From contig JAHLMK010000012.1 in NCBI GenBank assembly GCA_019915135.1, positions 62,001 to 126,000 of the forward strand: 64,000 nt of DNA, written 5' to 3'. Position 1 is the stretch's first letter; every line of letters begins with the position of its first letter. Below, one piece after another: positions 20,994 through 54,051 of this stretch. The notes under the pieces were generated by a model, which was not told the DNA's origin, did not search any database, and saw only the letters and a list, made by a program, of their open reading frames with translations. The position numbers and the translations under genes are program-made. This stretch comes from Strobilurus pachycystidiatus (Eukaryota; Basidiomycota; Agaricomycetes; Agaricales; Physalacriaceae).

Positions 20994-21182
20994 TGTTATG
21001 ATCTTGGTCCGGGTGTCCGACAGGCACAAGGCCTTGCCATCCTCCTGGTTCCCGAAAGGTTGTCTGAAACCCCTCGGGGCGCTTGAGGAGCGTACCCGCG
21101 GGCGAAGTCTATATCTTGTTCCACCACGAACTCCGTTCACGGATATCATCTCCGCGGAAGCACCGTCTTCCTCCCTCCCCCT
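20994..21182 (+). repeat. 5' LTR of copy 1, first part
   Basis: Starts TGTTATGATCTTGG and matches the start of the 3' LTR at 38163 with a few substitutions (for example GAAAGGTTG versus GAAAGGTCG). It ends at TCCCCCT, where the KDZ transposon enters. Confidence 0.9.
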
Positions 21183-21330
21183 CACCCGTCGATGTACCTA
21201 TTATATATTATGAGCTGAGTATTCCTCGCCCCCCTCATTGTATTATATCACGACATGTGTCGAGGAGGTCCATAATATATTACAGGCTTCTCTGGGGATG
21301 TCCCCGGCTCCCCGGCAGAGCTCAGCCAGC
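21183..21330 (+). repeat. Left TIR of the KDZ transposon
   Basis: Begins CACCCGTCGATGTACCTATT. It pairs with the complement of 34450-34597, with conserved blocks GTATTATATCACGACATGT and TAATATATTA. The outer 30 bp and the block around 21240-21300 match best. Confidence 0.85.
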
Positions 21331-21442
21331 ATTGCTGCCGTTCTGCCAGCTCCTCTTGCTGCTGACTAATTCCTCTGGGCCACATTTCTTTGTTCAAAGC
21401 GAATAAATTAGGAAATAATGATATAAATGGACAAATATGGTA

Positions 21443-24400
21443 TCAGTCTAACGCCCCCCCCTCAATATGCGCTTCCTGCTCATACTCCTCCATTACCACA
21501 TCCTCCTCAACGTTCCCATCAAGAATATCATCCCCCTCCATATCAGTGTCGTCTCCTCCTCCTTGAATTGATGAGGTCCCACCCTCTCTTTCGTCCAGAT
21601 TGCGCCACAGATGCTGAAAATGGTTGGCAACCCGGCTACGAATGTGGGATTGGCGGTAGGCGTAGGCTCGAGCTCCTTGGCTGCAGCGACCGTCCTCTCC
21701 CCGCTCCTTCCACCATTTAGCAAAATGGCGCAGGAATACCACTGTTCTTCTCATTTCCTCCTTCACCAGCTTTACCTCCTCAGTCCACCGCCTCATCCGA
21801 GCATACGATTTACACCACTCCACCCGCAGCCCTTCCTGGAGATACTCCTGCTCCCTAGAGTCAATCCCCTGCCAAATCCATGTCGGGCCTTCCCTATACC
21901 CTTCCCCCCTCCTATTGTCCCCTCCGTCCTCCCCCTGGCGAGGCGCCCCTCTTCGATTTCGTTCTCGAACAAGAGGGGCGTCAGCTCCCTCATCCAGCAT
22001 GCGCACATCCTTCCCCACATCCAAGACTCGCCACTTGGGATCCAATGTCTCTGAGCTTGCATCTACCAATGCCGCCCTAGCTTTCCGCGCCAAGATATAT
22101 CGAGCGGCGTGCTGAGCGATCTTCACTTCGTTTCTCCGAATAAGAGCCTGCGCCCGTGTTGAGGCTCCCTGATGTCGAACCTCCCCTCCTCGAACTCTCA
22201 GCATACGGGCCTTGATGGTGAGTTGAGACCGTAGACCGTCCAATGCCCAGCCCATCTGATGCTCTCTCAGCTCCTTCTCCAGCTCGACCACCTCTCCCTG
22301 GCATCCGCTCATGCGTTGTTGGGCAGTCATCTGGGAGGGGAACATGATGATAACGTCTTCAATGTGGCTGGTTTCTGAAGCGGAGCTGGCCAGATCCAAG
22401 TCGGAGAGCGCTCTTCCCGATCCAGGAGTGTAGACCGACTGTAGCTCCCGTATGCGATTGAGTGAACGAGACAGCTTTGTCCGCTGCTCCAAGAGGTTGG
22501 TGATTTGAAAAGCAGTCTCGGGCTTCTTGGACATCTCCAGCTCAACACGGAGTCGGGATCTGACTGAACGTCAGATTGAAAGATTCAACAAGAGCAAAGA
22601 AAGCTTACTGAGACTCCTCCAAGTCAATCAACTGTAACATAAATCCCCTCGACGAGACATCGTGAAAACAGCTCGTTCCTGCGTCTGCTTCCGCCTTATC
22701 CTGCTCTGCAAAGCTCTTCCGAACCTCAGCTTGGCTGATTTTCTTGGTCTCCGGCATGGCGTAGGGGTTGGGATTGGAAGAGTCGTCGTCAAACGCCTTC
22801 ACCATGGCGAGCCACTTAGACACATTATCCTTCTGCGCCAATGTAAACTCTTGCCAAGCCGCCGTTTGGGCGTTTCGTTCGGGGATGGCTCGTAAAAGCC
22901 GTCTCTTCAATGAAGCACCTTTGAGGTTGGTCAGTCACAAACATCGAACATGAAAAGCTGTGCTAACCCAAGCCAAATAACTTGACGATGTTCCAATGGC
23001 CGAGGTGATCCTCGATTGTATTCCGCCGATGTCCAGGACCCATTTCTCGCGTGCTCGTTGCAATAGGTCCGATGTTTGCCCACGGACGCTCGATTCCTTC
23101 TCCATCCGTACGTGCGGTGTGGAGCAGGAAGTTGAGAGAGAAGTACATGCGACACCACCAAAGATGGCCGCGAATGTGGAGTTTAGGGATTACGTATCGG
23201 AGGATTCGGAGGGTAATGTCGATTCGGTGGCTGGGTGGGAGATTCTTGAGGCGTACAGCAAGGTGCTTGAACCATTGACACATGATGTCGTACGACCAGA
23301 CAATCATGAGCAACGGGTGTATGAACATGAGAATGCAGGCCGCAATCCAGTCCATGTTGGCAAATCTAAGTAGTAGCTCAAACCAACGCCTTCAAGCAAT
23401 TTGACCAAACTTACCGTTCTCCCTTCTGAAGGTCGCAGACCCCATTCCGCATAACGAACTCGTGCCTTGCACATACGGCCAGCGCAATTCCCGTGGAGGC
23501 GTAGCCCTTGGAGTATTTGGTGTTGGCCATGTCCATCGCTGCGAACCCGGAACATGAGCTCATCTAAAGAAGTGTCAATAAGGAAAATAAGAGGAAAGGA
23601 AGCATGTCAACTCACGTCCTTCTGGTCTGTGACAGTCTTGAGATACTCATAGAAGGGCTTGATCTCTGAGTAGTACGCCCATCCCATCCCAAGGCCAGGA
23701 TCCTTCTTCTCACTAGATTTGGCCAAACGCTTCAGTCGGAAGCAAGCGTCGACCGCAATAAACAAGATATAGAGAGCCCGAACGTCTGGAGACGCTTTAT
23801 CCCAGCCTTCAGGTAGGTTTATGTCCGGATGTGGGCAAGCTGGGCATAGAACCGCCAGCTCTCCAGCACGCGTCTCCTCAACGCTCCGTTCGGGGTCGTT
23901 ACCACGCCCAGCACGCTTGAGCATCCTAAGATGACGCCATTGTCTCAGGATGAGCAAAAAAGACTTGTATCGATCCTATGGCATTGTCAGAAACAGCTAA
24001 AGCAGAAGGGTGAGATTGTACTCACCGGAAGCTTGCGGACGCCCGTATTGTCTGTTAGACGCTCCAATGATGTATAGTAGTCGTAGGTGGTCGTCTTGCT
24101 CTGAAGTGTGAGCATGTGAAACTGCCGAAGACATTCGAACGTGGCGCAGGTTCGCGGTTCTATTTGCGAAGAAGGGAAGAGACCACGACGAAGAAGTTGT
24201 TGATGGTAAAGACCCGCCTTTGAGCGTTGTTGACATGCGCAGCAGTCGATGGCAACCTCATGTATTCCAGTTGTGTGTATTACCACAAATCGGTGGTCAG
24301 CCGGGCGTGGATTGGGACACGCGGTACCCAGACGATGTCCAAGCTGGATTCGGAGCCCTATATCTCGTAATGTTGCGTCCTCAAAGAATTTCCCAGTCCA

Positions 24401-25061
24401 ATGCTAAGCTTAATGAGTACTAGGAGTCGAGGGACAAGCAGAGCACACACCAGGATGATATCAAAAGGTCGGCGAACATGCTCTTTCACATTACACGCCC
24501 GACACGCGAGCTCGCGTCCCAAACACGTCTGACACCTGTAGAGATCTTCGTCCGTGCTGCCACAACGGTAGCAGGACTCCTCGGCGTCCTCCAAGCCATC
24601 CTCGCGCAGACATTCGCCCAGAAATTCTGGTCTGCTGGGTACCCAACCCGTAAGAGGTTCATCCTGTAGCCATTGAATACACTCGGTCAGATGATGCCAG
24701 CCACGCTGCGCGCTACACGCACCGAGGTAATATATTTACGTCTCTGCCAGCTCTCTACCTCGGGCAGGACCGTGGAGGCGACCGTTGTAGACGCTTGAGG
24801 ATCCGAAGGAAAGTCCACTTCAAAGGCCTGGCTGTAGTCGACTTCATCCGTCCAATCAGCTTGCTCCACCTGCAAAATATCTCGCAGTTTCCGCGCCCGT
24901 TTGACAGGAGAAGGAGGGGCTGCTGCTGTAGACTGCACGTTGAACCGGCGACCGTCAGTGGAAGGGCGGTGAACGTCAATGGTGCCCCCATCGGAGTCAC
25001 TGTCGGAGTCGGAGCCTTCCAAGGCAGCAGTGAAGACGGCGCGGCTCCTCTTTTTTGGCAT
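21443..25061 (-). CDS. KDZ-family transposase, uninterrupted (1087 aa)
   Basis: Eight exons: 24723-25061, 24451-24663, 24026-24403, 23616-23975, 23415-23563, 22968-23365, 22609-22918 and 21443-22559. All introns are about 46-60 bp and GT-AG, and the sum is 3264 nt with no stop. Start ATG at 25061 (MPKKRSRAVF), followed by an acidic Ser/Asp run. Residues 144-175 carry C144-x2-C147, C157-x2-C160, C167-x2-C170 and H175, the CxC-type zinc domain of this family. The catalytic core shows VDACFRLKR (D386), the CSGFAAMDMANTKYSKGYA block, WSYDIMCQW (D506) and TDGEGIERPW (E569 or E572), in the order of the RNase-H-fold DDE triad. A coiled-coil, Arg-rich C-terminal region follows. It should bind the TIRs and cut the element out; that is family knowledge. 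Divergent to nothing; TET/JBP lies upstream in the same direction. Confidence 0.93.
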
Positions 25062-25185
25062 GGTATGATGGCAAGAGCAAGAACACGTGTGTGGCCCCAC
25101 CCTCTCTCTTTGCTAACTAGGGTGATACCCTTGGTCTCTGTTACCCCCTTGTTATGAATTTAGACTTTTATTTTTACAGCTTTAA

Positions 25186-27233
25186 TCAAGACGAATACTG
25201 TCTAACGAGTTCCTCCCATACTGGAAATAAATCTCTATTTCTACCTGGCATCCCCTGGCGATGATATCCCCAAGCCGCCAAATCCTCCTTTGACGCGCTC
25301 TCTTTGAACTCCTTGTCAGACATTCGGCCGTTCAACACCCAACGGAAAAGACCCGCCGCTGAAAAAAGCACGAACGCGGAGCGGCTCTGGCCTTGCCACA
25401 CAGTGATGTTGCCGTGGGTGATAAGAGCGGAGGGCAAAAGGATGAGATTTCCCGGTGGAAACTCAATGACCAACCAAAGATCCCAAAGTATGAGATGCCC
25501 GCCCATAGTTGGGTCAAAGTCATCTAAAGGCCAAACGCCACACATCCCTCCGACGCGGTTGAGATGGTCGGTGTGGAGGCGCGTCCAAGCTCCTGGGGGA
25601 AAGTTCACGTGCGCCGCTGCAAATGCACAGCTGCCAAACGGTCGTCGCAGGTTTTTGTCGTCGTCTACGATGGCGTCCAACGTCTCATCGTACTCCTTCC
25701 ACATCTCTGGAAAGTACGTGGCAAAGGCCTCTGTAAGATTTGTTAACCAATGAGAACAGGTAAATGTTGAAAGAGCAAACACTTACTATTGGCGAATTCC
25801 GTCATCCTCACAAAGGGCTCTTCCTTAAAGAGCTCTTCCAGTACCTTGGCGTTGCCAGGCTCGTTATCAATCCAGCCTGGAATGATGCGGCCCCCTCCAA
25901 AGCTCAAACCCCAGCCCAGAGTTTCATAATCGCCGCGGCGGTGAAAGCTATGCTCCGTGTCAAAGCGGCACTTGGCTTTGGCAGCGCGAATAAGCTCCGC
26001 CGCCCGACGCATCAGGGCTGGCCAGTCCCCGACGTCCGGGTGCCCAACGAGCACCAGGAGTAGGCGCCCTTCCGCGTCCAGCACAACTTGAGGTTTGCTA
26101 GATACTTTGAAATCAGCCCGAATTTCAAAATGGAAACGTTCAAGAAAGGCTTACACTCCTTTCCAGTTCATTTTCTTGAACGCCCGGTCCACCATTCGGC
26201 GCATTTCATCCAGAGTCCACACCTTTGGATCCCAGTCCGTCCTAGGACCCTGCCAGGTCCCGCCCGGGTGCGCATACTCACTATCAAAAACTGCGGCCTC
26301 TACAGCTCGCCGCTTGGCTCGAGCCTTCGTCGTTCCTCTGCTGCTCTCCCCACCCCGAGCCTCGAATCTTTGCCGGTGTTGGCGTCGTCGAGTGCGTTTC
26401 CGAGGCGGCGGGTTCAATCCTTCCTCCGCCGCTCTCAAACGAACTGTCTCTTTCTGGCGCTTGCGCTTACGAGCGCGCCTGGAAGCGGACCCTTGCCCTT
26501 GCTCCAGGTCAGAAGAGGGTGGCGGGTCTGGCGGCGTAGGAGGACGCAGAGGAGGCTCAAGGCGCACAGGAGGTTCTGGCTGTGCGAGCAGAGGCGGCCG
26601 AGGTTGTAGAGGCGGGAGAGCTAAGGGTGACGGCGAGCGAGACGGCGGGCGGCGTGGCGGGAGGGTTGAAGGAGACGACAAGCAGGAGATGAAAGGTGGA
26701 GGAGAGGGTAGAGGGCTGAAGCTCGACGAACGTGCCGGCGGGGTCGGAGATCGAGAGAGGGATGATAGAGGTGAGAGAGGCGGGGATGGTGGGCGCTGGC
26801 GTCGGCGCAGAGGGCGCCCGCGAGCCTCCTCAAGACGGGTGTAGACGTCTTCGCAGTCGCTGTCGTCATCGTCGCCCCGCTGCAGAGCCTCCTCTGCCCG
26901 TCGCGTTAAAAGCTTCGTAAGCGTCGTTCTCTGCACGACGACGGGCGCGCAATGTTGAGGGAGGTCGGGCACGCCATATCCAGAGAAAACCGTGCCTTGA
27001 CGCGTCTTTCGTTCTGTCAAAGGCGTCAGCTTACTCTAGACTAGGCTTGGAAGGAGGGGAAAGAGATAACAGCTCGAAAAAAAAATTGAGAAGGGCGCGC
27101 CCGTCTTTTCGCCCCCAAGTTCGAGGGCGTACTCGTCGCGCGTGCCCCAAAGAAAGAGTACGCTACAGTAAAAGAGAAGCTGTTAGAAATGCTCACCTGT
27201 CAGCGGCGGACGCGCAAGCCCCGTCGTAAACAT
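25186..27233 (-). CDS. TET/JBP-like 2-oxoglutarate/Fe(II) dioxygenase (583 aa)
   Basis: Four exons: 27197-27233, 26155-27013, 25787-26097 and 25186-25730, in frame throughout. The first exon is short (12 codons); I chose it because the long second exon has an acceptor but no ATG at its start. Residues 60-270 are Pro/Ser/Arg-rich and low-complexity. The C-terminal catalytic domain includes KPQVVLDAEGRLLLVLVGHP, then LHTDHLN with the metal ligands H455 and D457, GGHLILWDLWLVIEFPPG, ITHGN with H508, and QSRSAF with R519 for 2-oxoglutarate. These are all the expected ligands of the double-stranded beta-helix fold. Fungal TET/JBP enzymes oxidise 5-methylcytosine and are known to be linked to KDZ transposons. 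Here the gene probably counters methylation of the element; that role is inferred. About 125 bp separate it from the transposase start. Confidence 0.85.
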
Positions 27234-27903
27234 GCTGGCCGCCGTTCGGACTTGGAAAGCGTTGGAGTTCTGGAGACCTGGTCTGGACTGTGACGGCAAC
27301 GCCCAAGCAAAGCCCCGTCACGCTTCCCGCGCCGGACGTCCGTTCTGTAACCGTCAGTCCTTTATCCTAGACGGTTGTGGTGTCGGTATCCTGCCAAATT
27401 TTGGTTTGTTGGAGAAGTCTAAATGAATTTAGATTATCTACACTCTTAATAGTGCAATATATCATGTTCGTCCTTCCTCATACACGTCCTCATCTTGGCA
27501 CTAAGATTTGGTCAGTCATTTAGCCTCTCATAGACAGACACTTGTACAGCTTCATATTCTATACTCGCAGCGTCTATGATGCTATTTGAGTCTGGTCACG
27601 GATTTTGTTGAGCAGGAGAATGGGTGCGGCCCGTCTACAATGACTTCGCAAAGCAACAAGCTATAACACATACTGTTACTCGCCTTGTTGCAATTAGGCG
27701 TTTTCAGATTGTCTGGAATTGATTTTATTAGTTCATAGATACAATCCTATGAATGTAAGTAAATCTAAAATTATATTATTTCGGCGATTCACAGCTGAGA
27801 AAGTGTTATAATTTACGGTCTGACCAAAACTTGCCATGAGCAACTACCTTTCAAAACGGTCGTCGATCACTGATCGACGGCCTCTTTAATCTCGACCACC
27901 ACT
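27234..27903. other. Intergenic spacer in the KDZ element
   Basis: The divergent interval between the TET/JBP and AT-hook genes. It is AT-rich from 27420 with a short inverted stretch (CGGTCGTCGATCACTGATCGACGGCC) just before the ATG at 27904. No ORF of note; presumably holds both promoters. Confidence 0.5.
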
Positions 27904-28565
27904 ATGGCCTTCGGGAAAAAGCGTGGGCGTCCGCGGATACATCGTACGGACGCAGACCGCCGTGAAGCTCGGCGCACCTCAAACCAGGACTACTACTCGT
28001 CTAAGCGCGAAGACATCCGGGTGCGAAGGCAAGCCAAATATCTTGAGGAGGGGACGGATGATCCCGCCCGGTGCGTCTCCTAACTCTCGCCCGCGCCCAG
28101 GTTGACTAACATGAGTTTAGTCTGATTGCCAAGAGAAAGCAAGCCACCGAGCGCAGCAAGCCCGCCGTCGTTGCGCCTTTGGAAGTCATCAACCTTCTGC
28201 GTACCATCCGGGTTCATCGTGCCTGCATGCGCGTAGCAACGGACAACGACGTTGTCGCACATCTCAACATGCGCTGCCAGGAAATGGTCGACGCCCTTGG
28301 CAATTCCAAGCTTTACAAGGCGGTGACGATTCGGTTCAAGCACGATGCAAAAAGGCTGCACGATGATATGCTGGCGTCGAAGGAGGCTCTGGGCAGAATA
28401 ATGGAGGTGCTAGGATTGGAGAGTGCAGAGGCAGAGGAAGGTGACAAGCTTTGCTTAGAGCTGGCAGAGGGTGCACGCCTGTATGGCGGCGTCGCGGCCA
28501 AGGTTCGCGACGAGACGGTCTGCGCCAGATTTCTGTCGGGCATTCTGCCTCATCAGATGGAGTGA
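27904..28565 (+). CDS. AT-hook-like small protein of the KDZ cargo (203 aa)
   Basis: Two exons, 27904-28070 and 28121-28565, joined by a 50-bp intron (donor GTGCGT, branch-like CTAAC, acceptor TTTAG). The N-terminus has an AT-hook-like core, KKRGRPRIHR (residues 5-14), in a very basic 60-residue stretch (DADRREARRTSNQDYYSSKR) expected to bind AT-rich DNA. The rest is a helical domain (LRTIRVHRACMRVATDNDVV; LYGGVAAKVRDETVCARF). It is transcribed divergently from the TET/JBP gene. The layout resembles the 190-aa gene at 3408-4079. A role in recognising the AT-rich TIRs is possible but not shown. Confidence 0.75.
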
Positions 28566-28718
28566 GCTTCAAGTACAATAGATGCCTTACCTTTACCTGT
28601 TCAATCTATTTCACCAACTATTCTGTACCACTGCTGAAATGGCTAATGAGAGGTGCTTTGAAATAATTGCAAGATGTAAGATATTGGATGTGCTAAAATG
28701 TGAATAGAGGCGACGGGG

Positions 28719-29638
28719 CTACAAGCTCTCCTCGGCGTTCCCCTCGGTGCTTTCGGCCCCGTACACGCGAACCTCCCCAGTTGCCTCGTCGTACTCATAC
28801 TCATACTCCGTCTCCGTCTCTATGCTCAAATCGTCGCACTCCCACTCTATCTGGTTGCCTTCGTCGTCTTTGCCTTCCTCTGCGTCCGAATCTTCCTCGT
28901 CCTCGTCCTTGTCCTCCTCGTTATCGTCTGAGGGTGCGGGGAACCAAGCGGCAGGTTGCAGGTCGTAAAATCGCGTCCGAACGATATCTTCTAACATTGA
29001 GGCCTGCGCCAGATGTTCGCGGGCTTGGTCAGCCCAGGCGGCGTGTGTGGGATCTAGACTGGCTGCATCACTGAGGGAAAGAGTTAGCAAGGTGAGGGGA
29101 GTTGTTGAAGGGAATCACTTACTTGCGCTCTACAAGCCAGTCCCAGGATTGCAAAGCTACGCGAATTCCAGAGACGGACTGCCATTCGGCTTGGAGCTGC
29201 CAAACGGCGTCGGACTTGGCAGTTGAGAGCCATTGCGCAAAACGAGGAGCGACGGTGATGGGGGGCGTGATGGCGCAACGCGCACGGGAAAGGAAGCGTT
29301 CAAACTTTAGCCTGTAACGGATAGCCTGGGAGCGGTCAGAACGTAAGATAAGAAAGATATAACCAACGCACATCTTTCTCAACGTCCGTGGGCTCCTTCC
29401 CATACCAATCCTTCCAAACCATCCACAGACGAAAGAAGAAAGGGTAGTCGTTTCCCAGCGTCATCGAGTTGGTGTAATACGGATGGAGGATTTGTAGGAA
29501 GTGAAGCCGGGCGGGGTGCATCGGCGTCCGAAGGTAGTTGGCGAACATCGAGTGCGGTTCGGCCTTGACTGTCGCACGGGAGGCTTCGATTTCGGAGGGC
29601 AGGAAGTGGGTGCCCAAAAAACTGAGCAGGACGGGCAT
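28719..29638 (-). CDS. 273-aa acidic-tailed protein of the KDZ cargo
   Basis: Three exons, 29372-29638, 29123-29325 and 28719-29070, with introns of 46 and 52 bp; 822 nt, no stop. The N-terminal two thirds is helical with many aromatic residues (NYLRTPMHPARLHFLQILHP; DYPFFFRLWMVWKDWYGKEP; CAITPPITVAPRFAQWL). The C-terminus has a long acidic run (DNEEDKDEDEEDSDAEEGKD) and a Glu/Tyr-rich tail. I do not recognise the family. It converges with the AT-hook gene and is divergent from the 248-aa gene 132 bp away. The preserved frame and introns argue that it is a functional part of the transposon. Acidic tails of this kind often bind histones or basic proteins, which is speculation here. Confidence 0.75.
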
Positions 29639-29770
29639 GGTTGGCAGAAGAGAGCGTGGGTGCGAGCCGAAAACGGACGAGTCAAGTTGATGACTACAAG
29701 TTGATGACTAAATGTGCTTATGCCGTTCACTTCCGCAAACCGTCGTTCCGTCTCTTCTCCCATCACCGTC

Positions 29771-30618
29771 ATGTCCTCCGCTAAGTACCGATGCACGCCG
29801 CCGTATCATCCGGCGTACTCTCATCGCGGCCAAGATCCCCGCGATCTGGGGACGTTTTACCTAGTTAAGAGGGGGTTGAACGAGCACGTTGGGATTTACA
29901 CGGACTGGTGCGTGGTGCAAGCGTCTCACGACTTGCATGACTGACACAGAATGGCAGGGATGCCATCCCGATGGCGGCCCAGACACCTCCTCCCAAGAAA
30001 GAGTTTGTTTGGGACAAGATATGCTCTCGCTGGGGCGATTTTTGTGTCGCCAATCATAGACACGACGAGCGATCCCCCCGCATCACGGACCAGCAGTTAT
30101 ACCGGAGCTGGGCGACAGAGTGTCTCCAGAGCTCCGAGACCTCTCCTCCCTTGGACGACGACCATGACGACTCTATCGAGGAGATCGCACCTCCCACCTC
30201 CCCATCCCCGCCTTCATCCCCCGTCAAACGCGCACCGTCTCGCGCACCGTCTCCGAAGAAAACGTCCCAGAGAAGCGCCCAATCTGCATCCGTCTCGTCC
30301 GTATCCCGTCCGTCCGCTTCCATCATACAAGCGTCCGCGTCGGCGTCTTTTCCCTCCGCGCCATCTTCCGGTTCAACACGTGCGGCCAAGGCTCGTTCTA
30401 CGACCGAGGAGTCGGTCTGGTACTTGGTGGAATACAACGGCAGCCGTCATGTTTTTGCTTCAGTGTAGGGTCCTTTACCTTGTTTTGCTGTGAGAGGCTA
30501 ACATTGGCGTTCTAGGTCGGACGCCTTTGACGCAGCAGAGCGTGATGGCGGAGAGGACTCCATTCAGATTCACCGAGGTAACAAGTTCAAAGCGCGGGAA
30601 TGGATGGAAGGTATCTAG
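29771..30618 (+). CDS. 248-aa protein with RNase H1-N-like repeats
   Basis: Exons 29771-29907, 29958-30464 and 30516-30618 (introns 50 and 51 bp) give 747 nt without a stop. The first exon ends with GTFYLVKRGLNEHVGIYTDW and the last part reads VWYLVEYNGSRHVFASVSDA then FDAAERDGGEDSIQIHRGNK. Both resemble the small [FW]Y-V-x-G ... IY-x-W module of the RNase H1 N-terminal / caulimovirus viroplasmin fold, which binds RNA-DNA hybrids. Between them lies a Ser/Pro-rich linker. Start ATG at 29771 was chosen because the conserved module begins just after it. The fold assignment is a motif-level judgement; the splice model is solid. No catalytic RNase H residues are seen. Confidence 0.65.
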
Positions 30619-30753
30619 TTGTCATGCTATAGATCCCTACCCAAATGTACCCCCCTTCATCTATATATGTATCTACACGGTGACTGTTAGCTTGGCTGAT
30701 CGCTGGCACTGGCAGAGTGACAGTAACATCACACAGACCTGTACCTTGACGCC

Positions 30754-33700
30754 ATGACCCGCCCACGAGACCCCGCAACACTGCGGAAACGCGGCCGCAA
30801 ACCTATCTGGTCGGACGACAGAATTGCTTTCCTCAAGGAATGGTTCGCCAAACGCGAAGGGCTAGACAGGAAGGCGGTGGCTGGGTTCAACGCGAATTTT
30901 CTGCAGGCCTGGTGGGCAAAATTTCCCTACCATTTGGACGATGAACGACCGGAACATTGGCCTCCGGAACCTCTCCCGAATGCTCCTACAGTAGAAGTCG
31001 ATCCTTGGCCTGTTGTTGAAAAATACACGGACGAGCAGGAGAAGCTCACCAGCCTGAAGCAGGCCATGATCAATACGGGAGAAAAGGTGCGTGATTTGCC
31101 TCACATTTGAGGACGCGTCTGATTGCATGACTTCAGCAACTGCGTACTTGGTTCAACAATGCCATTGCTCACAAGCAGTCCGTGTCCGCTACCATTGGGA
31201 GAACGGCGTTTGGCGGAATGATGAAGAAGTTGCACAACACAAGCGTCCGCCCCATCCATATCCCCGATTACAAATTCTACATGCGCCACCCCGACTTCGT
31301 TGAACATTGTCGAACCGCGACCGAGGAGGATCCTGCATTTGAGAACCTGGAGAGGGGGGAGGTGTTGGCGTTTCGGTGCCAGATCGCCAGTGAACTCTAC
31401 GACGACGAGGATCTTGAGGTGAAGGAAATGATAGAGAGGGAGAACGAGGCCGCCTACCAACAGCGCGTCGCCGAGTTCAACGGCCTGGCTGGGGAGGAGG
31501 GAAATGCAGATCAAGCTGTGTAAGTAATTCCGCTTCTCCTTCCAGTTATCTAACTAACGGTCCTTCCCTCAGTTGCCGCATGAACCTCGCGCGCGTTGTG
31601 CAGCCGCTGTTAGAGTCTCTCAGCCTGGCTACAGGATATTCAATGGCGCTCGTTGCTGGCGCTCCCCCAAAGGTTGGCGAGAAGAAGTTCTCTCTAGCGG
31701 GCGTGTATTCCGGGCGAACAAAGGATACGCGTCAGGACTTTGGGGAGTGGATGGGGGAGAAAGAGATGCGCAAGAAGGTTTGGAATCCGTTCATGAAATT
31801 TTTGTTGCAGTGTGACCCAAGTAAGTCCGCTTTTGCCTGCCAAAGGACGCGTCTAATATACCTTGTGTAGACGGAGAAAGTATCCCCAACGTAGAGATGG
31901 CGGATGTGCAGATGGAGTCTGCGGACAGTTACGGCGCTGGTGGCGACGGTGAAGATGAAGATGAGGGAGAAGGGGACGAGGATGAAGATCGTCCGGCGAA
32001 GAAGAAGAAGGGAGGGAAAAAGGGCAAGAAGAAGGGAGAAAAGGAAAAGGCAGACGCCTCCCCTACCGTACCCGCTCCCGCTCCAGCTGCGCCCAACCCG
32101 GCAACCTCCTCTCCTATTCCCCCTCGCCAGCAAAGGGTCGATCAAGCCGCCTTGGACCGCGAGGTTGAGCGCGAACAGCAACAAGAGGACAATTTCCGTC
32201 TCTCTGCCAGCCGTAGTCCATCTCCCACTCCTTCCAATAGAGCTCCCACCCTCCCTCCTCGGGAGACTACGCCCGACCTTCCCGAGTCTGTCGCCAGTAC
32301 CATCACCGAGTTTATGATGTCAAAAATCAACGCTCTCGAAACAGGCGATAGGCGTGCCGTCCTTGCTCAGCTCTCACGGATGTCAGAGTACGAGGTTTCC
32401 AGAGAGTGCAATATCACCCGTAACAAGGAGGAGCTTCGGAAGCTAGGATTTGAAGCCGAAGAGGAGGGAGTGTTGAGAGGAAGGCGGCTCAAGGCGGACC
32501 CTGTACCTGAAGAAAGCTTGACGCCCAATTCTGCGCCTGTGGAGAAGAGTGCACCAGAGCCCCCTCCAACCCGTATGACTCGAGCGTCCGCCGCCGTGGA
32601 TGCTGCATCTAATTCTCCTGCGGCTGATTCTGCAAGTCGAGATCAACCCGGCCCGACCCCCGGTCATAGGGAGCCATGGCTGTAGTATTTTGCCTTTTCT
32701 TCCTGGCTGTAGCCAGAAGAACCTGATTTATCTAACGTGGCACTAGCCAGGAAGCCTAGCGGAGTGTCGTATTGAAAGTCGGCTGACTCAGCAATCAGGG
32801 GTATTCATATTAAAATATAATCTACTTAATAATAAGATCAATTATGCATTGTCATTTATTTAACAATATTATCACATATTCATACAGCAGTAGGAGTTAT
32901 TTGATGTCATGATATCTAGTTTTGCATTTTGAAGCAGCCACAGAGTAGGACAATTACTATAATTGGCAGCCCATAAAATCAATTAATTTCCTATTTATTA
33001 TTTTCTCATCATTCTTCCCCTCATAGAAAAACGTTTTCAAACCCCCGAGACAACCCTAACCAACCCTAACCTAACCCTAACCGGTCTACATTAGACACTA
33101 TTCTAAATCAGACTTAGGTTGCTCATCGCAACCTAAGCCTTTATATACAATAACACAAGGTTAATTATGTAATTGAATATTTAAGTGTATTAATACTGAT
33201 CACGTGACCTTAACCTAACCTATCACATGACTTTGTAGTGGTTTCATCTGTCTGGCTCTAGCCAGGCTCCTGGCTTTGCCAGGGAGGATAAATCAGCTTC
33301 TTGTGGCTACAGCCAGGAGTTTATAGAAATTGCTACAGCTACAGGTGTCATAGGCCTACTCCACCAGCGCCGGATACTCCCGAGGCTGATCCCGCTCAGC
33401 AGTGTGCAGCCGCTCCTGCGCCGACTCACGCTCAGCACGCTACTACTCCCTCTCAACATACGCCAACTTCCAACCAACGTTGCTTAACAACACCGGATGT
33501 TGCGCCGGCCGTCAATCAAGGCACGGCAGCTCCCCAACAATTCGAACTGCAGGCAAACGCCCGTGGCACCCCGTCTCCCCCTAGGCAACTTACGCCGGCT
33601 TCTACCGAAGATGCTTCTCGAATGGAGGTGGATGCTCCCACGGCTCAGGCCAAACCTGCTGGAGAGCAGAGTCCCGTTACGATGGCTGGGTGGACGGGGT

Positions 33701-34284
33701 GGATGAAGGATTCGTTCAACATCTACCTGAAGGATAGGGTGAGGGGAGGTCTAGGGGAGCTAGTCAACCTATGGGGGAGGTTGGAGCTTCATTTGGGAGC
33801 GGATGCAGAGGGAAAGGGTTCGGGCTATGGAACTGCCAGCAGACCAGAAGAGATTGGGCAGTGGCAGAAGTATGGGCGTAAAGCTAACGCCCCCCCCTCT
33901 TTGAAGGCGAAGACGTTCGGGGATGCTCTGAAGAAATGGTGGATCGCCCTCAACCCCAATTGGAGAAAGGGCGATGATGGGGAGGTGGTTGCAGGGGGTG
34001 AGGTCGAGGATGAGTGGGGGAAGCTTCCTGCCAAGGGAAAGAACGGCATCTTTCTTCTCTTATTGGCGGTGGCGTGGTGGGGAGAGGCGGTGGAGGTGGA
34101 GGAGGGGGATCTGAAGGAGTGGGAGGGCATGGTTGCTGATATGAGATGGGTATTTGACAAGATGCTGCAGTCCCCCCCACCCCCACTGCCTGCTGTCAAG
34201 AGTGCTGGTAGGAAGCGGGGTTCCATTGGCGCTCCCTCCTCTGTCCCAGCTCCTTCTGCTAAAAGACCTCGACGCACTGTGTAA
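30754..34284 (+). pseudogene. KDZ companion gene (897 codons) split by a TIR element
   Basis: Exons 30754-31086, 31137-31519, 31573-31820 and 31871-34284; the last carries an insertion at 32671-33346 plus its 8-bp duplication. Leaving those aside the frame runs 2694 nt with no stop. Order of parts: KPIWSDDRIAFLKEWF near the N-terminus, QLRTWFNNAIAHK, ARVVQPLLESLSLATGY, a strongly charged linker (EDEDEGEGDEDEDRPAKKKK), a Pro/Ala-rich region, and a C-terminal domain with WMKDSFNIYLKDRV, KWWIALNPNWRKGDD, GKNGIFLLLLAVAWWGEAV and MRWVFDKML. This is an expanded Agaricomycete family commonly near KDZ genes; the relic at 5238-8546 is another member. Biochemical role unknown. With the insertion the product would stop after GHREPWL at 32685. 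Confidence 0.85.
32671..33346. mobile_element. 676-bp TIR element in the companion gene
   Basis: Flanked by a perfect 8-bp duplication, GTCATAGG at 32663-32670 and 33347-33354. The ends are long imperfect inverted repeats: CTGGCTGTAGCCAGAAGAA with CTGATTTATC on the left (32705-32735) has its complement at 33286-33316, with nested TGGCTGTAGCCA palindromes. The interior is AT-rich and includes a short run of CCCTAA-like units (33052-33080). It is non-coding and hAT-like by target size; its ends differ from the TAGA-type MITEs elsewhere. Confidence 0.88.
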
Positions 34285-34449
34285 TTACCTCTCTCATGCT
34301 GTACTTATAGTCTATTGATAGTCTGAAGAACCATTTTATGCTGGATAATATTGTGTGCCGCCTGGGTTTTATTGTGCGCCACATTATCATGAGGTTGCCG
34401 TGATGCCGGCGATAAGCTAAGAACTTATGTCGGCATATACGGCAGAGAG

Positions 34450-34597
34450 ACATAGTCACCCCAGCCGAGCAGCCGGTACATCTTCCAAGGAAGCCCATAA
34501 TATATTACGGACTCCCTTGATACATGTCGTGATATAATACAATGAGGGCGATGACAGGTTCTCATCCTAATATACATTATTAGTACAGCTATGGCTG
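34450..34597 (-). repeat. Right TIR of the KDZ transposon
   Basis: Complementary to 21183-21330. The outer end read inward is CAGCCATAGCTGTACTAATA. The strongest shared block lies at 34530-34550. Confidence 0.85.
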
Positions 34598-34604
34598 TCC
34601 CCCT

Positions 34605-35515
34605 GCAAACGTACCATTGGATACGACCTTACGAGAAGCCAGCGCAACCAGGTTGCGGACTCTCTCCGTCATTTCGACACCTCAGGGAAACCCTAGCAAA
34701 CTAAGTAACATACGCGCCCACATCCGGATCACTCGGTCCGACTACAGGGAAGCCCGAAGGAATACTCTCGCCACATCACCTACCGAACTCGCTCGTACGA
34801 GTCTAGACTCAGCAGGGCGGTCGACCACCGTAGGAGAAAGGCGCGCCCGACCGTCTCCGCTCGGCCGAGGACCTTTCCCGATCGCCCGCCCCTCGCACAA
34901 CTATGTTCACGAGGGCTCTCTCCTCTGGTAGAGCTGGCTGGCGCTTCTTGAGAAGAAGCACCACGCGCTCCCATGATACCGCCCGCCCTATCGCGCCCAT
35001 CGCCATCGATTCCGCCTCGCGACCGCATGGGTGAATCCCGCCGCTGATCGGCATTGACTCCCGCCGCGTCGGCTGACAACCCGCCATCGCCGGATAGGCC
35101 TGGGTCGTTTACGCTTTTAGCCGGAACCTTGAAGAAGGTTCTCAATGTTTGGAGAATGAGTCAGGAGCGCCCTTTTGGGTAGATGGCGGGACAGCGCGGT
35201 CCCGCCGCCCGACGTATAAATACAGCGCTATCATACTTGTAAAACCTTAGAGTGGACTTTACGTTTAACCATCCCGTTCTTCGTCCTCGTCCCCGTCTCC
35301 TCATCCAAACAGACCGTCCTCTTAAGATATCGACCGGGTCGATCTCTAAAGTGAACGACCTCTCGCGAGAACAGACCAATAGACGACTCGGGGAGTCCGT
35401 CTGATTGACATCTCGACCCTCGCTCGTGTTGATTCCTGCCGGCGGAACACCCTCGATCTCGATAGACGGCCCGACCTACTTAGGATCCTAGGACGGACGC
35501 TAACAATAAGTCCAC
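34605..35515 (+). repeat. 5' LTR of copy 1, second part
   Basis: Resumes the LTR exactly where the KDZ transposon interrupts it and ends GGACGCTAACA. Matches 38354-39245 apart from a deletion of about 12 bp in the 3' LTR near 39057 and scattered substitutions. Confidence 0.9.
35211..35222 (+). promoter_or_regulatory. LTR TATA box
   Basis: GACGTATAAATA lies in the LTR about 300 bp before its end, with a pyrimidine-rich leader downstream. The same motif is present in the 3' LTR (38959-38970) and, inverted, in the second element copy (about 59561-59572 and 63317-63328). Confidence 0.7.
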
Positions 35516-38162: not shown

Positions 38163-39245
38163 TGTTATGATCTTGGTCCGGGTGTCCGACAGGCACAAGG
38201 CCTTGCCATCCTCCTGGTTCCCGAAAGGTCGTCTGAAACCCCTCGGGGCGCTCGAGGAGCGTACCCGCGGGCAAAGTCTATATCTTGTTCCACCACGAAC
38301 TCCGTTCACGGATATCATCTCCGCGGAAGCACCGTCTTCCTCCCTCCCCCTGCAAACGTACCATTGGATACGACCTTACGAGAAGCCAGCGCAACCAGGT
38401 TGCGGACTCTCTCCGTCATTTCGACACCTCAGGGAAACCCTAGCAAACTAAGTAACATACGCGCCCACATCCGGATCACTCGGTCCGACTACAGGGAAGC
38501 CCGAAGGAATACTCTCGCCACATCACCTACCGAACTCGCTCGTACGAGTCTAGACTCAGCAGGGCGGTCGACCACCGTAGGAGAAAGGCGCGCCCGACCG
38601 TCTCCGCTCGGCCGAGGACCTTTCCCGATCGCCCGCCCCTCGCACAACTATGTTCACGAGGGCTCTCTCCTCTGGTAGAGCTGGCTGGCGCTTCTTGAGA
38701 AGAAGCACCACGCGCTCCCATGATACCGCCCGCCCTATCGCGCCCATCGCCATCGATTCCGCCTCGCGACCGCATGGGTGAATCCCGCCGCTGATCGGCA
38801 TTGACTCCCGCCGCGTCGGCTGACAACCCGCCATCGCCGGATAGGCCTGGGTCGTTTACGCTTTTAGCCGGAACCTTGAAGAAGGTTCTCGATGTTTGGA
38901 GAATGAGTCAGGAGCGCCCTTTTGGGTAGATGGCGGGACAGCGCGGTCCCGCCGCCCGACGTATAAATACAGCGCTATCATACTTGTAAAACCTTAGAGT
39001 GGACTTTACGTTTAACCATCCCGTTCTTTGTCCTCGTCCCCGTCTCCTCATCCAAACACTCTTAAGATATCGACCGGGTCGATCTCTAAAGTGAACGACC
39101 TCTCGCGAGAACAGACCAATAGACGACTCGGGGAGTCCGTCTGATTGACATCTCGACCCTCGCTCGTGTTGATTCCTGCCGGCGGAACACCCTCGATCTC
39201 GATAGACGGCCCGACCTACTTAGGATCCTAGGACGGACGCTAACA
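38163..39245 (+). repeat. 3' LTR of copy 1
   Basis: 1083 bp, TGTTATGATC ... GCTAACA. It has the same ends as the 5' LTR and as the LTRs of the copy at 59281. Confidence 0.93.
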
Positions 39246-49560: not shown

Positions 49561-50031
49561 TGTCAAGACTGGTGCCCGAATACTAAGGCGACCACCCAAG
49601 TCACAAACAAGACAGAGAAGAGGGATAGAGATTGAAGTATAAGATGTGGAGGAGTGTGTTGAGCTACAACAGTACTAGGAGCGACCAAGCAGTGAGTAGA
49701 CGAAGAGAACAGACTGAGGAAACTAAAGGGAAGGGAGCTACTATATATATACAAAGTCCGTGGCTGTGTAGTAAGGAGGAGAACAATAAGACAATAGGAA
49801 GTCCTAATGTGGCGAGACAATAGGCGGGCCGGAGTAGAGACAATAGGCGGTCCGGAGTGGACCCAGGTGGTCATCAGACCACTGATGGACAGGTCTAGGC
49901 AATGCCAAGACGATGGATGCCAAGTGAATGTGGGCTAGGCCCAGGCCGAGGTGAATGTAGAGATGGGAGAATGTGGCGATGTCGGGAGTGGAGACGTGAT
50001 GGAGGGAGCAGAATAGAGGCGATTCGTGACA
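49561..50031 (-). repeat. 3' LTR of the gypsy element
   Basis: 471 bp, TGTCAAGACT ... TTCGTGACA on the plus strand. Same length as 55890-56360, and I see no difference on reading both. Confidence 0.95.
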
Positions 50032-53000
50032 ATACCCCCTCTTTAGGATGCGCTTGCGCCTGGAGCGCAGTAGTCCCTGTCCAGATGTCGTTAACGGTGA
50101 CACCGAGAGTGCGAAGGTGGGGAAGGGGTTTGGAGTAAGCCGTGGGATGTGTACGATGGAATTCCTTGATCAAAGGGAGTGCCTTCGTGAGGTTGGAACT
50201 GGGTTCCCAGGTGTTCTCTGATGACGGGTAGTCCAACCACTTCACCAAGTACTGAATGCCGCGCTTGTTACCAGTTGGGCGAGAGTCGAGTATGGCTTCA
50301 ACATCAAACTCTTCCTTGTCGTCGATGAGGTCGGGCGGATTCGATGGGAAATTAGGCCCATGAGCCTCGGTCTCCACAAAAGGAAGGAGGAGGGCAGCGT
50401 GGAAGACAGGGTGTATACGCCATGTGGGAGGAAGTTTGAGACGATAGTTGACTGGTCCAAGTACGTCAGTGACTTCAAAAGGCCCATGATGCTTGTCTGA
50501 GAGCTTAGCTTTGGGTCGCGTTGTCTTGAGATTCTTTCCGTCAAGCAACACCTTGTCACCAACTTTGAACGTAATGCCCTTCTTGGTGACATCTCCGTTG
50601 TTCCGCTTCATGATCTCTGCGGCGGTGGTAAGGCTAGCCTTGACTTCCTCGCGAAGCCGTTCTAGGTTGGTCAACCGTTCTTCGACAGTGGGAATATTGG
50701 ACGTGGGGTTCAAAGAGGGGTATAAGCGGGGTTTGAAACCGTGAAGAAGTTCAAAGGGGGACTTGCCCGTGGCGGAGTGAATGCGACTGTTGTGAGAGAA
50801 TTCCGCAAAGGGAAGGTATTTGACCCAGTCGTCTTGTCGGTAGTTACAGAAAACGCGAAGGTATTGTTCAAGTTCTTGATTATAACGCTCGGTTTCGCCA
50901 TCTGTTTGAGGATGGTAAGCCGTACTAAGCGCAGAGGTAATTCCTAGCTTAGCGTGAACGGCTTGCATGACCTTGCTTGCAAACTGGGGACCACGATCAG
51001 AGATCATCTTGTCCCAGAGACCATAGCGTCGATAAACACCATCCACCAAGATATCAACCGTACCATCCGCATCAATGGTCTTGCGGCATGGAGATACAAT
51101 TACCGTCTTGGTGAAGCGGTCAACAACACAATGGATAGCGTTATACCCTTCGCACTCGGGTAGATCTGTAATGAAGTCGGTGGTGATAGTCCCAAAAGGG
51201 CGCTCGGGAATCTCGTTGGGTATAAGGGGAACATGTGCCGGACGATTCCTAGGTTTCGTCATCTGACAGGTAGCACAGCCATCGACATAGTCGCGAACAA
51301 AGACAGACATGCCTGGCCACCAGAATTCTCGACTGAGAAGTTCGTAGGTCTTGAAGCGTCCAGGGTGTCCAGGACCAAGAGAGTCGTGGTGCATCTTGAC
51401 AATGTCTTGGCGTAGTTGCAGGTCATCGGGAACATAGACCTTGCCACGGAAGAGAACTAGTCCGTCCTCGTAGTTCCATTCCTGTAGATTTTTGACCAGC
51501 GAACGAGGACCATTGCGAAGAATGACTTCTAACGCACCACGGACCTCAGCGTCCTTATTTGGACATTCCCGAATACGTCGTCGCAGCTCAGCGTCTCCAA
51601 CGGCTACAACTTCTCCGGGTCTGGTAGCGCAAATTCGGAAAAACTTTGGATCAAGGAGGATCCTGTCGGTGTTGTTGTCATCGACCCCCTCTTTGTGATC
51701 CGCACGGCGGGAGAGTGGGTCACTACGGTTCTGAGTACCAGGTTTATGAGTGAGAGTGAAATCAAAGCGAGTGAGGAATAGTGCCCAGCGAGCCTGTCGC
51801 CGGCTGAGTTTCTGCGAGTTGGCAAAATATTCAAGGTTCTTGTGGTCGGTGAGAATATCAACTCGGTGTGCTGAACCTTCGAGGTACTGGCGCCAGGCTT
51901 CCAGAGCACGGATAATAGCGAGAAGTTCCTTGTCATGAATGTCATAATTGCGTTGAGGTTCAGAAAGGGACTTAGAGATGTAGGCGACAGGATGCCATTG
52001 GTCGTCGTCGCCTGTCTGGGATAGAATTCCGCCTGTGGCATAGTCTGAAGCATCTACTTCCACACGATAGGGCTTGTCGGGGTTAGGCATGATAAGGACG
52101 GGTGACGATGTGAACGCATCTTTAAGTGCCTCGAAGGCCTCTTGACACTCCGGTTTCCAGACTCATGGTTCGTCTTTCTTGGTGAGATCAAACAGGGGGC
52201 GCGCAATCCGAGAGAAACCTTCAATGAAACGACGGTAGAAATTCCCAAAGCCAAGGAATGATTGGACGTCCTTGACATTCCGAGGTAACGGCCACTTGGC
52301 GACACCGTCTACCTTGACTGGGTCCATGCGAAGTTCATTGTGAGAGATGATGAGTCCGAGGAATTCAATGGACTCAGCTTCAAAGGTGCACTTCTCGGGC
52401 TTAGCATAGAGATCGTGCTCCTTCAGGCGCTGGAGAACCTGCAAGACGACCTTGCGGTGTTCTTCTAAGGTCTTGGTGAAGATCAAGATGTTGTCCATGT
52501 ATACGACAACTTTGCCGGAGTCGATCAGGTCCTTGAGAATGGTATTCATCATTGCTTGAAACGTGGCAGGAGAATTCATAAGACCAAAGAACATCACCAA
52601 GGGTTCAAACAGACCGCGGTTTGTCTTGAATGCGCCTTTCCACTCGTCTCCTTCCTTGATTCGGCAGTTGTTGTAGCCTTGACGAAGGTCTACCTTTGAA
52701 AAGTAACGAGCACCCTTGAGTTTATCGATCAATTCTCCAATGAGCGGGAGTGGGTACTCGTTCTTGATGGTGCCTTTGTTAAGTTTGCGATAATCCTGGA
52801 CGGGGCGTAGTTTTCCGTCTTTCTTTTTAACAAAGAAGAAGGGACTCGCCATGGGGGACTTGGAAGGACGTATGTATCCTTTTGCCAGGTTTTCGTCGAG
52901 AAACGCGTCAAGTTCAGCTTGTTCAGTTGGAGACAATGGGTAGGTTTTGCATGGTTTTGGCTCGAAACCGGGTTTGAGATCAATGGCATGATCCCAGGGG

Positions 53001-53935
53001 CTGTGCTGGGGAAGCCGGTCCGATATGTGCTTGTCGAAGACAGTGAGATAGGCATGATATTGAGAAGGAATACGCTCAGCGAGAGGACGGGTGTCCTTGG
53101 GCATTTGACTAGCTTCAGCAAGTTCCTGCGCCTTGCTAAATCCAGCACGTATTTGAATAGGGGGACCATCAGGAGTTTGTGGATCTCGCACCGGGCGGGG
53201 ATAATCATCCCGAAACACTTGAGTGTACATCTGCTCTTCCCATTCTCTTGGGACCTCCACTTCTTCTTCATCGTCCTCGGTGAACAAGACGACGGGAATT
53301 TGAACCCGATTGTAAACGCGGGGTCGGATGCTTCGACGTTGTCCGGCTGTACGCTGGACTGGGACAGGCCGGAGGTTGCCTTCGCGATCCTTCCATTGAA
53401 CTTGGTAGTCTCGATGGTAAAGACGAGGGTCGTGAGGAGAGCGTTTAGTGGGGATGGGAATGCGTTTGGCGTGAGCACGTACGTCAGTCACCGGGGGGTT
53501 GTTGAGGGTACAAGAGTTGGGACAGCGAGTGAAATCTATCTGGACACCAGCCCAGTCTATTTCTGGGTTGTGTTCGTCGAGCCAGTCAGTGCCAAGGATG
53601 ACGTTGTGATCACCAATGTCAGTGACGTAGAGCTCGATTAGCTCTTCGTGATAGGAATGACCGTCTCGGCTATAGATCCGGATGCGCTGGGTAGTATAGT
53701 GTCGGACCCAGCCCATAACGTTTTCGGTGCCGTCAACGTTGCGAACAGGGAAAGGGGAGGAAAGGGGCATGAGGGTGAAATGATGCTGGTTTGCATAGCG
53801 GGCGTTGATAATAATACCTTCAGCGCCGCTATCAATTAGAGCTTGTGCGACAATTCTTCTGCCAGTGATTTTGCCAATGAATTCAAGTTCCAGTGTGATC
53901 GAGGGTGTCTGTCGGTTCTGGGTGACTGCTGACAT
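49895..53935 (-). pseudogene. pol: Gypsy pol: PR-RT-RH-IN-chromodomain, one TGA
   Basis: Minus-strand frame from the first ATG at 53935 to 49895, in one frame except for a TGA at 52163-52165. Protease: ALIDSGAEG. Reverse transcriptase: KVDLRQGYNN, FGLMNSPATFQ, and VYMDNILIF at about 52490, where the usual second catalytic Asp is Asn. The TGA falls in the connection (KDEP-stop-VWKPECQ), just before RNase H (VEVDASDYATGG ... DILTDHKNLEYF). Integrase: HHDSLGPGHPGR ... CATCQ zinc region, catalytic D in TTDFITDLP, D in ISDRGPQF, E in DGETERYNQ. A chromodomain (VEAILDSRPTGNKRG ... YLVKWLDYPSSENTWEPSS) marks a chromovirus, which targets heterochromatin marks. Some fungal elements may have Asn in that motif, so only the TGA is clear damage. 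Confidence 0.9.
50032..50044 (-). other. Gypsy polypurine tract
   Basis: Reads AAAGAGGGGGTAT on the minus strand directly before the LTR, the expected primer site for plus-strand synthesis. Confidence 0.8.
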
Positions 53936-54051
53936 TTGAAGTTCTTTGGGATGGGTACGCTCACAAAGGGTTGATAACACAGAGAATCGATTGGTAAAAT
54001 TTGTGACAGAATTGCGTACAGCTCCTCCTAACGTCGGGGTAGGGGAGCGCT

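Follow-up and report, generated by a model that had tools for sequence, protein, structure and literature searches.

The window analysed here comprises 64,000 nucleotides of contig JAHLMK010000012.1 (positions 62,001 to 126,000) of the basidiomycete Strobilurus pachycystidiatus; this contig is C12 of the 61 contigs (51.8 Mb) of the genome that was searched. It contains a KDZ transposon in which the transposase gene is accompanied by the gene of a TET/JBP-type oxygenase (hereafter TET) and by four further genes, called C, D, E and F. The element interrupts a long terminal repeat (LTR) of which a sister copy is also present in the window. The features of the locus are:

21183..34597: whole TET-carrying (TET+), Kyakuja-like KDZ element, 13,415 bp; the same ends occur in copies on contigs C20 and C7
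21176..21182: left 7-bp target site duplication (TSD), TCCCCCT; the duplication is absent from the sister LTR
34598..34604: right 7-bp TSD, TCCCCCT
21232..21316, plus strand: left subterminal inverted-repeat arm, 83% identical to the right arm over 86 columns (E 2e-19)
34464..34548, minus strand: right subterminal inverted-repeat arm, pairing with the left arm 21232..21316
38163..39244: sister LTR, showing the empty target site
21443..25061, minus strand: KDZ transposase, 8 exons, 1087 codons, CxC2 cysteine cluster and KDZ domain (PF18758, PF18803)
25186..27233, minus strand: TET/JBP-type 2-oxoglutarate (2OG)-Fe(II) oxygenase, 4 exons, 583 codons, assigned by its HTD/H/R residues and the fold of a close relative
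27904..28565, plus strand: gene C, 2 exons, 203 amino acids, N-terminal KKRGRPRI motif
28719..29638, minus strand: gene D, 3 exons, 273 amino acids, acidic tail, no known domain
29971..30618, plus strand: gene E, 2 exons, 198 amino acids, no known domain
30754..34284, plus strand: gene F, blocks 30754-32676 (4 exons) and 33361-34284 with an insert between them
32671..33346: A+T-rich insert of 676 bp within gene F; its inverted-repeat arms measure 42 bp and it is flanked by the 8-bp repeat GTCATAGG

The element starts with CACCCG and finishes with GGCTG, that is, it has CA..TG termini. When its LTR flanks (window 20994-21182 and 34605-35504) are fused at one copy of the TSD, they match the sister LTR in 1077 of 1089 alignment columns; the differences are five substitutions and one 7-nt indel, none of them at the junction. 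Because the LTR pair differs by so little, the insertion appears to be young. A preliminary description of the window, made from its sequence alone, had placed a KDZ transposon with a TET/JBP-type oxygenase and four further genes between these duplications, inside an LTR with the empty site visible in the sister at 38163; the coordinates proved exact and the junction intact. It had also read both terminal inverted repeats. Inverted arms do exist, but the terminal repeats are imperfect and the best pair is formed by the two subterminal arms.

With the outer 300 bases of each element end as queries, two further copies were found in the genome, with the same ends and each with its own 7-bp duplication. 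The copy on C20 (C20:124901-137543; 12,643 bp; TSD AACAAAC) is 81.7% identical to the window copy across 12,523 aligned bases. The copy on C7 (C7:2057357-2104873; TSD GTCGTCG) is split by nested insertions, and its duplication sits in a GTC repeat, which makes the length of the TSD less certain. In both copies all six genes are present and their order is unchanged. The preliminary description would have been contradicted by copies whose ends enclose only a subset of the genes, or by duplications that do not coincide with the ends in relatives; neither was seen in these copies. Two other readings of the locus are ruled out: chance or an assembly artefact, by two further copies with exactly the same ends and different duplications, and two separate adjacent elements, by the C20 copy with the same six genes inside the same ends. 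We are virtually certain that the mobile unit is bounded at 21183-34597. All three copies combine a 7-bp TSD with 5'-CA..TG-3' termini, as expected of Kyakuja, and we interpret the element as a young cut-and-paste transposon within the KDZ superfamily, probably of the Kyakuja kind.

The C20 and C7 copies are 98.4-99.1% alike throughout and form one subfamily; the window copy is the sole member of its own subfamily found by this end-based search. In the C20 copy the TET frame is intact, and transposase, D and F are frameshifted. On C7 the right element end with its flank occurs twice, 28.5 kb apart (C7:2104673-2104873 and C7:2133219-2133419; L010 and L011), and the doubled end indicates a segment that is duplicated or split. 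Divergence between the window and C20 copies at four-fold sites is ~0.1-0.4 in the transposase gene, up to 0.65 at C/D and down to 0.1-0.3 in F. This is a gradient without a clean breakpoint, by which a sharp swap of a module in mid-element is ruled out. Recombination between copies is likely to have taken place.

The transposase matches PF18758 with an E value of 2.1e-59 (201 bits, cut-off 26.6), which places it in the KDZ superfamily, and PF18803 (CxC2) with 1.2e-42. It contains the motifs YD..C and ER.W, both of which are found in 27 of 30 genomic KDZ loci examined. The intron at 22967/22918 has weak splice signals. As the preliminary description had it, the reading frames of transposase (zero internal stops) and oxygenase (HTD, H and R in place) are free of stops and retain their catalytic residues. 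In stop-to-stop frames compared with C20, an excess of third-position substitutions is seen in eight blocks of the transposase gene, three of the TET gene and those that make up C, D, E and F. The blocks are joined by GT-AG introns of ~46-60 bases that are conserved in C20, and the first TET exon of 37 nt (27233-27197) is also seen there. Together, these patterns support six spliced coding units. The earlier statement that six genes are legible in one piece holds to this extent, but F is interrupted by the 676-bp insert.

All six genes are under purifying selection. The ratio of nonsynonymous to synonymous divergence (dN/dS) against C20 is 0.107 for the transposase, 0.106 for TET, 0.252 for C, 0.252 for D, 0.261 for E and, in F, 0.197 for the first and 0.383 for the last part; against C7 the values are, in the same order, 0.095, 0.095, 0.161, 0.235, 0.250, 0.192 and 0.364. 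The highest bootstrap upper bound for any of the genes is 0.56. Synonymous divergence (dS) is 0.29-0.35 in the transposase and F, 0.54 in TET and 0.8-1.2 in C, D and E, with its peak at C/D.

In the domain search, no recognised domain was found in C, D, E or F. The KKRGRPRI motif of C is, we assume, AT-hook-like. F has a conserved helical C-terminal domain (~33658-34170); aligned domains share common W, P, R and NG positions, and a model of the domain is helical and gave no structural match. The insert in F is absent from the C20 and C7 copies, its arms are 86% identical and it contains TTAGGG-like CCCTAA runs; perhaps it is a non-autonomous hAT-like element. Since F is interrupted, it is uncertain whether the window copy deserves the term complete that the preliminary description had used. 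It is quite conceivable that the insert inactivates F and that the window copy is no longer autonomous, with F supplied by related copies or families: the insert, with its target repeat, lies inside a gene that is uninterrupted by it in both other copies. On the other hand, insertion of the element into an LTR only ~0.5% diverged from its sister points to recent mobility of the lineage, and the two insertions may have occurred in either order.

In the window the genes are arranged as transposase (-), TET (-), C (+), D (-), E (+) and F (+). The ordered cassette is found again at four divergent loci within this genome, with F adjacent at three of them, and in part at a fifth. At the C4 and C2 loci the order is transposase, TET, C, D(-), D(+), E, F; the C22 locus has the same order with the D pair inverted relative to C4, C2 and C7, and the C7 locus (2.22-2.24 Mb) follows it as far as E, the nearest close match to F being ~50 kb away. 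The C9 locus has transposase, TET, D and F across 28 kb, with C and E not detected. At the C3 locus, transposase and TET are 71-75% identical to those of the window, and C, D, E and F were not detected. Because C3 and C9 carry subsets, the gene set is modular. The preliminary description had proposed that the element shows which genes travel together; this is borne out by the six genes in the same order in three copies, but not by every related locus. In hhalign, the F domain of the window matches its divergent forms with a probability of 98.0% (E 1.8e-13) and D matches its divergent forms with 96.4% (E 1.3e-9); an unrelated control, F against D, gave 0.1%.

The element at C22 (C22:737804-752865; 15,062 bp) has CA..TG ends and inverted repeats of 681 bp at 85%. 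It contains E, two D paralogues, C, TET, transposase and the C-terminal domain of F, in the same order as in the window. The long inverted repeats begin beside the points where the coding frames of F and the transposase end (L058, L059; C22:738001-754000), and the CA..TG ends lie 29-31 bases beyond both arms with GTAACGG on either side. This boundary and the TSD GTAACGG are probable; chance pairs of this kind occur in the same scan.

C was found at seven loci, all near TET (six at ~2-3 kb, one at 11 kb), and E at eight, seven of which are TET loci. Among the ten D loci, eight have TET within 13 kb; the other two are a fragment at C2:3.03 Mb, with a TET fragment 10 kb away, and C20:0.88 Mb, without TET. 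The region C20:856854-887789 has an E-like gene and a D pair, and TET, C and KDZ transposase were not detected in it; this would be either the remnant of a cassette or the cassette on an element of another kind.

F has a wider distribution. Its C-terminal domain gave 48 matches in the genome, corresponding to 46 loci, of which 23 have a KDZ transposase match no more than 10 kb away (shifted control: mean 3.1, maximum 9). The control consisted of 2000 local shifts that were not confined to contigs and is therefore somewhat low, and several of the F-transposase pairs are near-identical copies and not independent. Of 64 TET matches, 12 have a transposase no more than 5 kb away (mean of the control 1.3, maximum 6). 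After extra fragments of a listed gene had been dropped, 117 of 123 transposase, 64 of 68 TET and 46 of 48 F rows were used. Most of the transposase-linked F loci (20 of 23) have no TET match within 60 kb. Fifteen F loci sit 6.8-8.7 kb upstream on the transposase strand, 14 of them without a TET match within 60 kb; these 15 loci apparently represent another class of KDZ elements. F would act with the transposase, because its C-terminal domain is also found beside KDZ transposases without a TET neighbour, and we lean slightly towards F being its partner.

We consider it very probable that the cassette evolved as a unit belonging to the element. Alternatively, the extra genes could be passengers of host origin that an ancestral element captured on a single occasion and that have since moved with it to no effect. 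It is true that all four lack a recognised domain and are missing at some TET loci, and the three middle genes are far more divergent than transposase and F (dS ~0.8-1.2 versus 0.3). However, divergent loci keep the same order and orientation, each gene is under purifying selection, F-domain genes lie near transposases without TET, and no host-gene homologues of C and E were found elsewhere in the genome, bar one E/D locus. A passenger origin without function is highly improbable in our judgement.

In the oxygenase, the metal triad HxD...H and the 2OG-binding Arg are conserved: H, D, H and R are invariant in seven of seven aligned sequences. No Pfam family reached the cut-off with the window protein, there was no match to Tet_JBP (PF12851) at E 10 and no sequence-level match to TET. 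Two of the seven aligned relatives match PF12851 weakly (best E 0.027), and the genome has 13 sub-threshold places for this family, seven of which are homologues of the oxygenase. The double-stranded beta-helix fold was compared using a predicted model of the C22 relative, not of the window protein. In Foldseek, CcTet chains occupy the twelve top places for this model (E values from 4e-7 to 6e-6), followed by NgTET1; these two take ranks 1-16, and CMD1 was also matched. The structural alignments to CcTet have 13-17% identity. As far as the accessible text on CcTet of Coprinopsis cinerea goes (PDB 7vpn, 7w5p, 8jkk; PMC11040006), this best structural match shares the HxD...H metal site and differs in having Gly331 and Asp337 where the window oxygenase has Asn and Cys.

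Judged by spacing from HxD and not by alignment to CcTet, the Asn is at HxD+5 and the Cys at HxD+11, in the window protein as well as in the C22 relative, all six database homologues and L062. AG-type TETs of Kyakuja are reported to have Gly or Ser at CcTet G331 and Asp at D337 (Kojima, PMC12730594); because Asn and Cys occupy these two CcTet-specific positions, the oxygenase is not filed as AG type. Its HTD also differs from the HxE motif of Kojima's PE-type TETs. We equate the Asn with the place of Asn1387 in human TET2, presuming the histidine numbering of the human protein. Asn1387 contacts 5-methylcytosine (5mC) in the accessible account of TET2 (PMC11040006), which argues against the reading that the TET label reflects fold resemblance only and that the substrate is another one (N6-methyladenine, thymine, RNA or protein). 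That reading draws on the missing sequence-level match and on a second structural comparison of the C22-relative model, with VIA-align, in which the TETs tie with a bacterial protein and the 2OG oxygenases FTO and PHD2 score close. The twelve of twelve top Foldseek rows taken by CcTet, and the seven of 13 Tet_JBP places occupied by homologues of the oxygenase, speak against it as well, and we regard another substrate as unlikely. The oxygenase probably acts on 5mC in DNA.

Between the C20 and C7 copies, 70 of the 1684 sites in CpG context show a transition, compared with 38 of the 5165 remaining C/G sites, and all five substitutions in the LTR pair are CpG-context transitions. This fits methylated transposon DNA in the host, the substrate that the TET idea needs, and by the same measure shows that methylation of the C20 and C7 copies is not fully prevented. 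Alternatively, the oxygenase could generate stable oxidised bases (5-hydroxymethylcytosine or further) that mark or protect the DNA of the element rather than erase methylation. CpG transitions still accrue in both copies, as they would if methylation is not fully removed. From what is accessible of the two reports, two mushrooms build up oxidised methylcytosine at their transposons and TET genes (PMC12730594, PMC8889193). Its enrichment at TET genes, described for Laccaria and Coprinopsis (PMC8889193), also speaks for the overall explanation given below. All the same, we find a marking function rather doubtful.

The best overall explanation, to which we assign a probability of roughly 0.75, is that of a Kyakuja-kind element with a transposase, self-directed TET oxidation, F as partner and C, D and E as helpers. 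The transposase would cut at the CA..TG ends; KDZ transposases are described to move DNA with short duplications in the case of KDZ1-3 of Cryptococcus neoformans (PMC12810828). The oxygenase would oxidise 5mC on silenced copies of the element itself and so make expression or cutting possible. CcTet oxidises 5mC (PMC11040006), and escape from silencing was proposed by Kojima for TET+ elements (PMC12730594). F would work with the transposase. C (basic, AT-hook-like), D and E would serve the TET-carrying subfamily only and perhaps guide or regulate the oxygenase; that these three serve the oxygenase is a tentative suggestion.

TET/JBP and KDZ transposase genes reportedly adjoin in basidiomycetes, a finding of Iyer et al. 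from 2014. As cited in PMC12730594, that work describes the gene association and no element ends. In December 2025 Kojima (PMC12730594) described TET+ Kyakuja elements with exact boundaries, 7-bp TSDs and CA..TG ends, with families in five Agaricomycete orders, and the novelty that the preliminary description had claimed for an exactly bounded TET element has to be given up. The window element is like them in its KDZ transposase and TET/JBP oxygenase, 7-bp TSDs, CA..TG termini and Agaricomycete host. Within the accessible text of that paper, three differences are apparent: the window element has imperfect inverted repeats, whereas none are reported for two Laccaria families; it adds four ordered genes that are not described for Kyakuja; and its oxygenase has, by HxD spacing, Asn/Cys at the two positions specific to CcTet, for which Gly or Ser/Asp are reported in the AG-type Kyakuja TETs. 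Companion genes are named there for IS3EU (an alpha-kinase) and PHISTA, not for Kyakuja. These TET+ IS3EU and PHISTA elements of rust fungi likewise have a third conserved protein, undescribed in PHISTA, but their transposases are unrelated and they have one companion gene versus four (PMC12730594). KDZ1-KDZ3 of C. neoformans belong to the same superfamily, have ~9-11 kb and inverted repeats and are proven movers; unlike the window element they have 4-8-bp TSDs and CxC1, not CxC2, and no TET gene is mentioned in the accessible part of the report (PMC12810828). The cassette transposase-TET-C-D-E-F has no description in the literature searched, and may be contained in Iyer et al. 2014 or in supplements, which were outside the search. 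Novelty looks confined to the companion genes, the bounded TET+ Kyakuja kind being already known.

The TET genes of mushrooms are believed to aid the escape of transposons from methylation, and the published account treats TET alone. The ordered cassette, together with an F domain that tracks TET-less transposases, provides candidate partners in transposition and candidate factors for steering TET. The element, whose ends are known, whose empty site can be seen and whose transposase and TET frames are intact, allows the role of each gene in counter-silencing to be tested. It is tempting to speculate that Kyakuja elements are multi-protein machines. F would then be a second subunit for KDZ transposition, retained whether or not TET is present, and C, D and E would join a distinct class of TET (HxDxxN...C) in a complex, encoded by the element, that directs oxidation to the element's own methylated DNA. 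We give this extended proposal only a modest chance; if true, it would describe a transposon-borne anti-silencing system with a logic like that of phage counter-defence cassettes.

Outside the element, window 49898-55659 has three long open frames on the minus strand (535, 646 and 755 codons), one of them polymerase-like as in retrotransposons; this region is probably a further LTR retrotransposon.

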